In this document: one piece after another, positions 17,752-20,522 of the stretch | How the letters are laid out: each line of letters opens with the position of its first letter | Position numbering within the stretch: the first letter of the stretch is position 1 | From: a virus | IMG/VR virus record: IMGVR_UViG_3300032282_005311 | Span: 1 to 20,522 of that record | Length of the DNA stretch: 20,522 nt | Strand: one strand, 5' to 3' | Program-made: the position numbers and the translations under genes | The notes under the pieces: model-generated | The model's input: only the letters and a program-made list of their open reading frames with translations | Told to the model about the DNA's origin: nothing | Databases searched by the model: none

Positions 17752-18084
17752 ATGCCCTCGCCACTCCTGCAGACCTACTCGACCACCTCGACGCTTGCGG
17801 CGGGCGTGGCGACCACTATCGACGTGCCGCTCAACGGCAGCACCAACTGGACGATCGCGCTCCGCAACACCGGGGCAACGAACGCCGTGACCGCGCTCAC
17901 GATCGCTGTGAGCCCGCTCGGCACGCTCTTCGAGGCCGCAGCGTCGATCACAACGGGCATCCCGCTCGCGGCGTCGACGTCGCTCGCGGCGATCGTCGGC
18001 AGCAACCAGCCTGCGACGACTGCCCGACTTGTCGTGACCTCGACCTCGGGCACCACTGTGAGCGTGGAGGCGCTCGGTCTGTGA
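17752..18084 (+). CDS. Small uncharacterised beta protein before fibre gene
   Basis: This 110-residue protein is rich in Thr, Ser, Ala and Leu, with alternating strands: AAGVATTIDVPLNGSTNWTI, TALTIAVSPLGTLF, TARLVVTSTSGTTVSVEAL. Almost no charged residues are present, which fits a beta-sandwich structural protein. It begins one base after the previous stop and ends at a four-base overlap (GTGA) with the fibre gene, so it is probably co-translated with it. I do not recognise a family. A role as fibre accessory or connector is inferred from its neighbours. Confidence 0.55.
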   Translation: MPSPLLQTYSTTSTLAAGVATTIDVPLNGSTNWTIALRNTGATNAVTALTIAVSPLGTLFEAAASITTGIPLAASTSLAAIVGSNQPATTARLVVTSTSGTTVSVEALGL

Positions 18085-19400
18085 TCACCGTCGGAACGCA
18101 AATCGTCAGCGGCGCTCCCTCGGGCGGCGGCGCCTCCGCGCCCGCGGGTACGGGCGTCGTCACGACGTCGAGCGGCGCGTTCGTCACGCCCGTGGCGTCG
18201 GCTGCGACCACGCGCAGCACGCTCGGACTCGGCTCGCTCGCAACCGCGAGCAACGTCACCGCGTCGCAGGTGAGCGACTCGACGACGGCGGGCCGCGCGA
18301 TCCTGACGGGCGCCGATGCGTCCGCGCAACGCACGTCGCTCGGGCTCGGCTCGCTCGCGACGGCGTCGACGGTGACGGCGTCGCAGGTGAGCGACAGCAC
18401 CACCGCGGGGCGCGCTCTGCTCACGGGCGCCGACGCAGCGGCGCAACGCACATCGCTCGGCCTCGGCGGCGCAGCAGTGCTCGCGGTCGGCACCACGGCG
18501 GGCACGGTCGCAGCGGGCAACGACTCGCGCTTTCTCGCGGTCGGCACGGGCGCGGGCACCGTGGCCGCGGGCAACGACTCGCGCTTCGTGACGGCCGGGC
18601 TCGACCTCGCGCGCGGCGCGGCGTCGGCTGTGGGCGCTCGGTACTTCGCGACGGACACGAGCGTCACCTACAACGACACCGGCAGCGCGTGGACAGGAGA
18701 CGAGACCGTGGGCCTCACGGGCTGGTCGGGCGCGACGGGGCGACTCACGTCGACAGCAGCGACGGGTGGCACTGCGTCGGGCCCGGTGCTGCTCACGGGC
18801 GGGTGCACGTGGATCCTCCGCTGGTATCAGGGCACCGTCGCGGGCGGGACGCAGCGGATCTTCGTCACGTACACGAACGGGTCGCGCGGATGGCAGATCG
18901 CACTGAGCAACCCCACCGCGAACAAGATCGGCATCATTCTGTTCGGAATCAACAGCTCTGCCGCCATCGAGAACAGCGCGTCGATCACCGTCGGGTGGCA
19001 CTGCGCCGCGTTCTCGGTGGCGAGCGGCGGTAACACCATCATCCACAGCGTCGATGGTGCGGTGGCCACGACCTCGACGCCGACGGGCACCTACCTTCCG
19101 CCCGTCACCGCGGATACTTTCTCGATCGGCGCGGGCCGCATCTCCGATGTGCCGCTCCAGAGCGACACCGAGCTTTATGAGCTGCGCGCCGTGTCGACGG
19201 CGCTCTCGGCCGCGCAGGTCGCTGCGATCACCGCGACTCCGAGCGTTGCGAAGCTGCCGACGCTCGCGAGCGTCACGACGGATTTTCTGGTTCGTCCATC
19301 GCTCATCACTCCTGATGGCACGGGCACCTCGTGGCTCTCGAAGGGCGCGACACCGCGCGTCGTGCTGCGCACGGGCACTCTCACCACGGCACTGAGGTAG
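18081..19400 (+). CDS. Tail fibre protein with repeats and C-terminal LamG/lectin-like domain
   Basis: This 439-residue protein is the predicted receptor-binding fibre. Residues 1-47 are Gly/Ser/Thr-rich. Residues 48-125 hold two copies of a 39-residue repeat, and residues 135-170 two copies of an 18-residue repeat with GTVAAGNDSRF, a motif common in shaft regions of phage fibres. A fibre-like GARYFATDTSVTYNDTGSAW segment follows (about 185-205). The rest resembles a concanavalin/LamG-type sandwich: GCTWILRWYQGTVAG, RIFVTYTNGSRGWQIALSNP, GWHCAAFSVASGG and ELYELRAVSTALSAAQVAAI, the last being typical of the final LamG strand and helix. The GTG at 18081 overlaps the preceding stop. The gene ends in Leu-Arg-stop within GAGGTAG, which also serves the next gene. 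Confidence 0.82.
   Translation: MITVGTQIVSGAPSGGGASAPAGTGVVTTSSGAFVTPVASAATTRSTLGLGSLATASNVTASQVSDSTTAGRAILTGADASAQRTSLGLGSLATASTVTASQVSDSTTAGRALLTGADAAAQRTSLGLGGAAVLAVGTTAGTVAAGNDSRFLAVGTGAGTVAAGNDSRFVTAGLDLARGAASAVGARYFATDTSVTYNDTGSAWTGDETVGLTGWSGATGRLTSTAATGGTASGPVLLTGGCTWILRWYQGTVAGGTQRIFVTYTNGSRGWQIALSNPTANKIGIILFGINSSAAIENSASITVGWHCAAFSVASGGNTIIHSVDGAVATTSTPTGTYLPPVTADTFSIGAGRISDVPLQSDTELYELRAVSTALSAAQVAAITATPSVAKLPTLASVTTDFLVRPSLITPDGTGTSWLSKGATPRVVLRTGTLTTALR
18222..18455 (+). repeat. Two tandem 117-base (39-codon) repeats in fibre gene
   Basis: Copies lie at 18222-18338 and 18339-18455. Aligned by codon, they differ at 15 synonymous and 3 amino-acid-changing codons, so 36 of 39 residues are the same. 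A third copy begins with LGLG but then diverges. Confidence 0.9.
18483..18590 (+). repeat. Two tandem 54-base (18-codon) repeats in fibre gene
   Basis: Copies lie at 18483-18536 and 18537-18590 and encode AVGTTAGTVAAGNDSRFL and AVGTGAGTVAAGNDSRFV. Sixteen of 18 residues agree. The GTVAAGNDSRF element is a familiar fibre-shaft motif. Confidence 0.88.
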
Positions 19401-19402
19401 TC

Positions 19403-19606
19403 ATGGCCACGATCACACAGCACTGCCTCTACTACACCGCGCAAAGCGACACGGTCGTCGCCCTGGTCGCGCACTACGGCCGCGACCTCGGCGACGGCAC
19501 GCACGAGGTCTACGTGATCTCGCGCGGCGGCCCCACGGTCGCCGTCGTCGCCGCGCGATGCGATCCCGCCACGCCCACCGCGGGCTGCTGGTCGGAGCTG
19601 CCGTGA
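19403..19606 (+). CDS. Small orphan protein, 67 residues
   Basis: This 67-residue protein is not recognised. It has a strand-like pattern (SDTVVALVAHYGRDLGDGTH, then YVISRGGPTVAVVAARC) and three Cys residues (near positions 8, 53 and 62), the last two close to the C-terminus. The start ATG at 19403 is preceded by GAGG at 19394-19397, five bases away. The 13 bases GAGGTAGTCATGG here are identical to those before the gene at 17229. The stop overlaps the next GTG (GTGA). No signal peptide or membrane segment is clear. Confidence 0.55.
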   Translation: MATITQHCLYYTAQSDTVVALVAHYGRDLGDGTHEVYVISRGGPTVAVVAARCDPATPTAGCWSELP

Positions 19607-19941
19607 CCGGAGCGGAGGTCGGCGCGATCGTGGCCTCGCTCGGAGGCGTCGGATCAATCGGCGCTGCCGCGCGCTGGTGGCTAGACCGCGCCGACCGTCT
19701 CCGCAAAGACGACCTGGCTCGCGAGGATGCACGCGAGGATGCGCGCGCCACACGCGCACAGGCGACGGGCGCTGCGCTCACGTCCGCTGCGGCGTCGATC
19801 ACGTCGCTGTCGTCAGAGATCGCGCGCGTGCCCGCGGCCCTCGCGACGCTGGAGGCGCGGCTCTCGCGAATCGAGCAGCAGCTCGCGGTCCTTGACGCGC
19901 GAGGCGCGAGCACTGACCATCACACGAACGGTGTCGCATGA
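19603..19941 (+). CDS. Membrane-anchored coiled-coil protein, possible inner-membrane spanin or lysis accessory
   Basis: This 112-residue protein has a weakly hydrophobic N-terminal segment (residues about 4-23, EVGAIVASLGGVGSIGAAAR) that may cross the inner membrane. A highly charged helix follows (LRKDDLAREDAREDARATRA), then a longer helix with heptad spacing (VPAALATLEARLSRIEQQLA). A short anchor followed by a coiled coil is the layout of inner-membrane spanins, and a lipoprotein gene starts about 500 bases downstream, as outer-membrane spanins do. The start is taken as the GTG at 19603, which overlaps the previous stop; the frame continues upstream only within the preceding gene. The spanin role is inference. 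Other small phage membrane coiled-coil proteins would look the same. Confidence 0.6.
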   Translation: MTGAEVGAIVASLGGVGSIGAAARWWLDRADRLRKDDLAREDAREDARATRAQATGAALTSAAASITSLSSEIARVPAALATLEARLSRIEQQLAVLDARGASTDHHTNGVA

Positions 19942-20441
19942 TCGCTGCCGATAGCGTCCTGCTCGGTGCCTCTGCTCTCGCGAGCGCGTGCGCTCTGCTG
20001 GAGACGTCTCGCGCGGCGCTCGCGCTGACCATCGACCAGATGCTCGAACGCGACCGGCGCTCGTGTCCGGCGCCCTCGCGCTCGGTGCTCGTGCTTGACG
20101 ACTCACCCGCCGTGCGGCTCGCGACGGTGCACGCGCTCGCGGCGCTCGGCGTGCCTGTGCTCGAGGCGGCATCGACCTCGGAGGCACGCGTCGCGATCCG
20201 GCAGAGCAGGCCCGCCGCAATCGTCGCTGACTACCACCTCGGCACCGAAACGTGCCTCGCACTGCTGCGCGACCGGCCCGCGTTCTGCCGCGCGGTCATC
20301 GTGTCGGGTCGCGTCGACCTCGCAACGCTCGCGCCTCTCGCGCGCGCCGTCTCGGCGGATTTGCGCGGGCGACCGCTCGACCTCGACGAGGAGCGCGCGC
20401 TCTGCGACCTCGTGCGCTCGTATCTACCGGAGGCCGTGTGA
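19938..20441 (+). CDS. CheY-like receiver (REC) domain protein with N-terminal hydrophobic helix
   Basis: This 167-residue protein has a receiver domain of two-component signalling at about residues 48-165. The visible pocket is the acidic pair Asp54-Asp55 in SVLVLDDSPAVR, the likely phospho-acceptor Asp98 in AIVADYHLG, Ser123 in VIVSG, and Arg145 in RGRPLD where the family almost always has Lys. The loop after Asp98 is shorter than in CheY (no PGMDG-like motif). Residues about 3-32 are a hydrophobic/Ala-rich helix (VLLGASALASACALLETSRA) that may anchor the protein in the membrane. No output domain follows. The ATG at 19938 overlaps the previous stop, and the stop overlaps the lipoprotein start, so it is made with the phage late genes. 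Function is unknown. Phosphorylation by a host kinase, or a non-phosphorylated decoy role, are both possible. Confidence 0.78.
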   Translation: MIAADSVLLGASALASACALLETSRAALALTIDQMLERDRRSCPAPSRSVLVLDDSPAVRLATVHALAALGVPVLEAASTSEARVAIRQSRPAAIVADYHLGTETCLALLRDRPAFCRAVIVSGRVDLATLAPLARAVSADLRGRPLDLDEERALCDLVRSYLPEAV

Positions 20442-20522
20442 GGCCGCTCCTCGTGCTCGCGCTCGCGCTCACAGGCTGCCCGGGCGGCGGTCTCGCAGGC
20501 GTCGTGGGCGTCGTCAAAACTA
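20438..20522 (+). CDS. Lipoprotein, N-terminal fragment (3' partial)
   Basis: Only the first 28 codons are in the window. From the GTG at 20438 the sequence reads MRPLLVLALALTGCPGGGLA, a short lipoprotein signal peptide: one Arg, a Leu/Ala core and the lipobox Leu-Thr-Gly-Cys, with the lipid-bearing Cys at residue 14. It overlaps the previous stop (GTGA). A short lipoprotein following a membrane coiled-coil gene at the end of a structural operon suggests an outer-membrane spanin, but the mature part lies outside the window, so an enzyme or another lipoprotein is possible. Confidence 0.7.
   Translation, partial: MRPLLVLALALTGCPGGGLAGVVGVVKT

Follow-up and report, generated by a model that had tools for sequence, protein, structure and literature searches.

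The timing of phage lysis is governed by the build-up of holin, by antiholins and by superinfection signals. Receivers that consist of a single domain, Spo0F and DivK among them, act in phosphorelays, and we know of no spanin system in which a receiver lies between the spanin-type genes. Stand-alone receivers are nevertheless encoded by isolated Alteromonas phages, where those of V22 and A5 have been published as class II AMGs (PMC7289586, PMC10579305) and that of R8W as a PhoB AMG; our literature search, which covered few subscription journals, found no paper that puts such receivers into a lysis mechanism. In the gp62/gp63 system of phage N4 (lysis regulator plus pinholin), control of a membrane lysis protein from the cytoplasmic side has been proposed for gp63, and the "Receiver domain" named there, a short conserved stretch close to the membrane helix, is not described as having a CheY-type fold (PMC12642591).

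Here we describe a receiver gene in a 20,522-bp window, i.e., a whole IMG/VR contig carrying a Mu-like run of late genes (portal, Mu-like protease, major capsid E, contractile sheath, DNA-circulation/hub, baseplate J, Gp48 and fibre genes). In our reading, which we hold at a probability of roughly 0.5, this gene encodes a membrane-associated single-domain receiver of the lysis module that would act as a post-translational regulator of lysis timing. Its product resembles V22 gp30 and A5 gp11, which are likewise single-domain receivers with no output domain whose genes come right after that of a membrane coiled coil. Those two genes have lysis genes next to them; unlike the window protein, their products have no N-terminal helix, possess the canonical lysine and were published as AMGs and not as lysis genes. 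R9Y1-3 gp12 and R8W gp48/H4/4 gp44 share with it the four-base overlaps on both sides and the position after a membrane coiled-coil protein, which in these phages has one TM. They lie beside a lysozyme or a holin gene; unlike in the window, their membrane partner is only a separate protein. Spo0F, DivK and other single-domain response regulators have the same fold, again a receiver without an output domain, but are chromosomal and soluble, with a complete active site including the lysine and with known kinases. The N4 system is akin to the model proposed below in that a lysis protein in the membrane is controlled from the cytoplasm to set the time of lysis.

A predicted receiver at the end of a phage late gene run

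The GC content of the receiver ORF by codon position (0.77/0.54/0.85) follows the phage pattern, which is absent from the overlapping antisense and other-frame ORFs. An earlier note on this DNA had placed the gene between membrane coiled-coil and lipoprotein genes with four-base overlaps on both sides, and this is confirmed by the shared ATGA (19938-19941) upstream and GTGA (20438-20441) downstream (Table 1). As the window is the entire IMG/VR contig, the lipoprotein gene is cut at the contig end. In size and character these two neighbours are similar to Rz/Rz1 spanins, with weak family matches (coiled-coil protein to the Rz-like spanin phrog_89, E = 0.003), and the coiled-coil protein weakly resembles A5 gp10. 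The fibre protein, a match to the head-fibre family phrog_5711, contains internal repeats (GLGSLATAS.VTASQVSDSTTAG).

Table 1 Features at the 3' end of the 20,522-bp window
Feature	Coordinates	Strand	Basis
Fibre-like protein, end of structural genes	18081..19400	+	phrog_5711 head fiber, E = 1.6e-9
Small protein (MATITQH...)	19403..19606	+	Sequence; counterpart at the same place in L049
Membrane/coiled-coil gene, GTG start, 112 aa	19603..19941	+	Hydrophobic N-terminus, WW, then coiled coil
Receiver-domain protein, family B, ATG to TGA, 167 aa	19938..20441	+	Profile matches, AlphaFold model, fold search
N-terminal helix, residues 1-46	19938..20075	+	Model helix 3-42; marginally hydrophobic at residues 2-21
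Receiver domain, residues 47-167	20076..20438	+	AlphaFold model; fold match across 47-165
Acidic pair D54-D55	20097..20102	+	Alignment, residue check
Phosphoacceptor-position D98	20229..20231	+	Alignment, residue check
S123, Ser/Thr position, end of beta4	20304..20306	+	Alignment; Thr in L049
R145 replacing the near-invariant Lys, end of beta5	20370..20372	+	Alignment; Arg in L049 too
Small lipoprotein gene start, GTG start, lipobox LALTGC	20438..20522	+	Sequence; counterparts in L049, L028, L041, L042

The window protein matches Pfam Response_reg with E = 5.2e-4 (20.6 bits, missing the cut-off of 30.2 bits), the NCBIfam models for NtrC (1e-5) and ActR/PrrA (1.4e-5) and, among PDB sequences, the NtrC receiver (4e-4), and a profile built from the receiver family matches PDB receivers with E-values down to 5e-14. 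Its AlphaFold model, computed from an alignment with relatives (mean pLDDT 72.8), begins with an N-terminal helix of 40 residues, after which strands (residues 50-53, 74-77, 94-98, 118-123 and 141-144) alternate with helices up to alpha5 at 149-162; the pLDDT is about 65-87 over the domain. In fold searches (Foldseek and VIA-align) response-regulator receivers rank first (Spo0F, with Z = 17.1 and an rmsd of 2.1 across 115 residues), and on the strength of this model the protein almost certainly has the (beta-alpha)5 receiver fold (REC, CheY-like) that the earlier note had claimed. A C-terminal DNA-binding domain was sought by Pfam and in the model and is absent; the sequence stops with the receiver, in keeping with the claimed lack of an output domain.

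The active-site residues read from the sequence beforehand (D54/D55, D98, S123 and R145) are exact. The window protein is an atypical receiver because the lysine position holds Arg145, which is followed by P146. In CheY, a lysine-to-arginine exchange leaves phosphorylation possible and blocks activation. The N-terminal helix reaches a best 19-residue Kyte-Doolittle mean of 1.72 (1.85 in the ortholog described below), at which its membrane insertion would be marginal and the membrane association of the window protein is only plausible; the membrane location suggested for the window protein from this helix is clear in a sister family, where it is provided by a C-terminal segment.

Relatives within the same phage group

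A direct search with the window protein against viral contigs and phages gave no match, and relatives were found via the portal gene (21 related contigs) and via the gene upstream of the fibre. One contig (L049) carries an ortholog with 53% identity, which we group with the window protein as family B. The two proteins share the arginine at the lysine position and 23 of 48 residues in the N-terminal helix, and both retain the acidic pair, the acceptor aspartate and the Ser/Thr. The gene order of L049 is also that of the window, i.e., small protein, coiled coil, receiver and lipoprotein, and this, together with the overlaps, bears out the earlier view that the receiver gene is part of the phage operon and not stray host DNA. 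Chance host DNA, or a gene decaying at a contig end, is an extremely improbable explanation: the gene does sit at the end of a metagenomic contig, but the ortholog and the sister family occupy the same place in independent contigs, the genes overlap and the sister family bears the mark of purifying selection. The window and L049 proteins are too diverged for a firm dN/dS estimate, and as both contigs stop within the lipoprotein gene, an endolysin downstream of family B is predicted from the relatives.

In a contig whose portal is 80% identical to that of the window (G005), a receiver at the equivalent distance from the portal is fused by a proline-rich linker to a hydrophobic segment. A viral scan recovered the same protein, hereafter family A, in L040-L044; a seventh contig (L045) stops after the first 69 residues of it. 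The membrane segment is C-terminal in six contigs, with a hydropathy of 1.6-2.44 among those measured, and the receiver part, which scores above the Pfam Response_reg cut-off (E = 3e-12 and 3e-10), has the active-site set E-D, D, S, K. The family A model is poor (mean pLDDT 57) and its membrane part was judged by hydropathy alone; membrane tethering by this segment is strongly supported in family A.

Downstream of the family A receivers lie genes for a lipoprotein, a short coiled coil, an Amidase_2 endolysin (N-acetylmuramoyl-L-alanine amidase; E = 1e-13 in L041), a membrane protein and a transglycosylase-like protein. This gene set is a lysis module, and we consider it very probable that the receiver belongs to the phage lysis module. 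Between L042 and L044 the receiver part shows a dN of 0.012 and a dS of 0.32 (dN/dS about 0.04), and between L040 and L041 there are zero nonsynonymous changes; judged from these substitution patterns, family A receivers evolve under purifying selection. In L042 and L044 the amidase has given way to another protein; its 315 aa, encoded at L042:8941-9885, include a PG_binding_1 domain at the C-terminus and no catalytic domain that could be recognised.

At that site four relatives (G016, G019, G035 and G037) encode small membrane proteins, a lipoprotein and an amidase but no receiver, so the receiver gene is dispensable within the phage group. Among the receiver-less relatives, L030 has an amidase-like endolysin downstream. 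A protein of ~230 aa with a zinc-protease-like motif sits between the lipoprotein and the amidase in the receiver-less L030 (L030:10536-11219, HECQH) and L056 (L056:10153-10857, HEEGH).

The distance from the acceptor aspartate to the Ser/Thr is 25 residues in all six phage receivers compared (four of family A, two of family B); among 80 bacterial receivers, chosen for their likeness to family A, it is 27-30 residues in 79 and 42 in one. The lysine at the end of beta5 is present in family A and in 80/80 of these bacterial relatives. The spacing common to both families suggests a single ancestral phage receiver, a descent that we propose for families A and B only. In a tree of phage and bacterial receivers, dominated by long branches, a single clade of A and B is neither rejected (p-AU 0.78) nor shown.

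Host and phosphodonor

The earlier note had spoken of a Mu-like prophage. The structural genes are indeed Mu-like, but a provirus search of 84,980 genomes with a portal alignment found no integrated copy, and a relative (G026, i.e., L057+L058; 35,393 bp, about 72% GC) has a 127-bp exact terminal direct repeat and is, for that reason, probably a complete 35.4-kb genome of the family A group. Among 379 Myxococcota genomes only distant portals were found; in the nine regions read these were 28-32% identical, and there was no matching receiver; a tRNA gene, sought in G026 as a clue to the host, is absent. A search for HATPase_c (histidine kinase) in 13 related records, the complete G026 included and the window itself being a fragment, found none. 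With no kinase in the phage records, any phosphodonor must be host-derived.

The same arrangement in Alteromonas phages

Stand-alone receivers in isolated Alteromonas phages were reached through a literature lead and tblastn, followed by a reading of the gene neighbourhoods. At least three sets of these phages that otherwise differ encode a single-domain receiver directly downstream of a one-TM coiled-coil gene, with spanin, holin, lysozyme or carboxypeptidase genes as neighbours. The claim that receivers are rare in phage lysis modules has to be corrected: in several lineages of Alteromonas phages such proteins occur repeatedly where fibre and lysis genes meet, labelled there as AMG, PhoB or hybrid kinase.

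The order in V22 and A5 is fibre, chaperone, (amidase, in V22), one-TM coiled coil, receiver, Rz-like spanin (phrog_4297, E = 7e-6 and 3e-8), two-TM protein and endolysin (in A5). In R9Y1 it is fibre, one-TM coiled coil, receiver and lysozyme (Glyco_hydro_108, E = 5e-24), with four-base overlaps, and in R8W and H4/4 long fibre, class II holin, one-TM coiled coil, receiver, membrane protein and terminase. In PB15 and XX1924 the receiver is preceded by a coiled coil whose TM is C-terminal, and in PB15 it is followed by an M15 peptidase. R9Y1 (a siphovirus by name) and R8W (a podovirus) have related coils (E = 7e-10) and receivers (47%) while the genes that follow differ, as though the two moved together. 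These lineages are not fully independent, since V22, A5 and P24 have their module in common through exchange. A pairwise BLASTP of the window receiver with V22 gp30 gave no alignment.

In V19, gp10 (L170:3498-3950) is a degenerate receiver after a one-TM protein, with both the acceptor aspartate and the lysine lost.

A receiver fold domesticated as a non-phosphorylated docking module, i.e., an adaptor for a membrane coiled-coil partner or spanin with no phospho-switch, would accommodate this V19 copy as well as the arginine at the lysine position of both family B members and the score of the window domain under the Pfam cut-off. We nevertheless think it distinctly unlikely, as the window and L049 proteins keep the acidic pair, the acceptor aspartate and the Ser/Thr, and the full set including the lysine is kept by family A, V22, A5, R9Y1, R8W and H4/4.

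Given that the receiver lies a few genes downstream of the fibre in the window, L049, V22, A5, R9Y1 and R8W, and that the V22 module has been named a host recognition module in the literature, the protein might instead be a tail fibre accessory or chaperone, or be carried in the virion. Position alone cannot separate a fibre link from a lysis link because lysis genes often follow fibre genes. Relatives that retain the fibre region yet have no receiver, the assignment of the V22 fibre chaperone activity to gp27 and not gp30, and membrane segments that would be odd for a chaperone all speak against this idea, which we consider very improbable.

The published view of V22/A5 ("class II AMG") and R8W ("PhoB") implies that the receiver is an auxiliary signalling gene that taps or redirects two-component signalling of the host (motility, phosphate, development) and so aids replication, its adjacency to lysis genes arising merely from accessory genes gathering at the ends of late operons. 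The ranking of Spo0F as the top fold match and the kinase-less phages agree with this. However, R8W gp48 (L168:3501-3962) and H4/4 gp44 (L169:3501-3962), annotated as DNA-binding response regulators, are 153-aa proteins made up of a receiver and a short helical tail, and with no DNA-binding domain R8W gp48 is not PhoB. A free cytoplasmic decoy would not be expected to overlap coiled-coil and lysis genes time and again or to be fused to a membrane segment in six contigs, and expression from this position would come late for host reprogramming. We regard the auxiliary role as unlikely, and for two effects raised in the earlier note, on host motility or development and as a sink for phosphoryl groups, we found nothing in support.

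Receiver matches in "Listeria phage", "Staphylococcus phage" and faecal "Bacteriophage sp." records were dropped as probable host contamination; Pseudomonas phage Y11 resembled host DNA. Stenotrophomonas phage Bhz63 is a different case, in which a complete PhoP-like regulator stands next to a kinase-like gene and away from the lysis genes.

A proposed regulator of lysis timing

That the protein could time lysis had been one of several suggestions in the earlier note; after comparison with the relatives it is the best reading, the effect itself being one that we infer. We propose that the receiver would be made late, translationally coupled to the membrane coiled-coil protein and the lipoprotein, and would be held to the inner membrane on its cytoplasmic side by its own N-terminal helix and perhaps by the coiled-coil neighbour. 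What recurs across these phages is a receiver together with a membrane anchor, placed among or next to holin, spanin and endolysin genes; the anchor is in cis in family A, and perhaps in family B, whereas elsewhere the coiled-coil neighbour would supply it in trans. The phosphorylation state of D98 would be set by host histidine kinases, phosphorelays or acetyl phosphate, and an altered alpha4-beta5-alpha5 face could then change the contact with the membrane partner, by which holin or spanin action would be held back or released and lysis delayed or advanced; this is the simplest mechanism for such a gene set.

For the regulation of lysis timing by the receiver we see an even chance. The arginine at the lysine position and the loss of acceptor aspartate and lysine in V19 suggest that phosphorylation is not always needed, and given Arg145 and this degenerate copy, an essential role of phosphorylation is rated below the regulation of lysis timing. 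More tentatively, and with some doubt, the pair of membrane coil and receiver, or the receiver-membrane fusion, may represent a recurrent phospho-gated lysis controller of tailed phages, with phosphorylation set by the host.

A receiver inside the lysis module would give host phosphorelays a direct post-translational channel to the lysis clock. If this is true, a phage without a kinase lets host kinases or acetyl phosphate decide the timing of holin and spanin action, with lysis tuned to host physiology, and viruses may sense the signalling state of the host when deciding on cell lysis. We also suggest that several proteins of Alteromonas phages published as "AMG" or "PhoB" be reinterpreted as members of the lysis module. 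The idea is testable at once because A5, V22, R9Y1, R8W, H4/4 and PB15 have all been isolated and their hosts are named.

In seven of these Alteromonas phages, no histidine kinase domain was found above the family cut-off. A sub-threshold HATPase_c (GHKL) match is located in A5 (W02:55928-56161), within an open frame of 854 codons.
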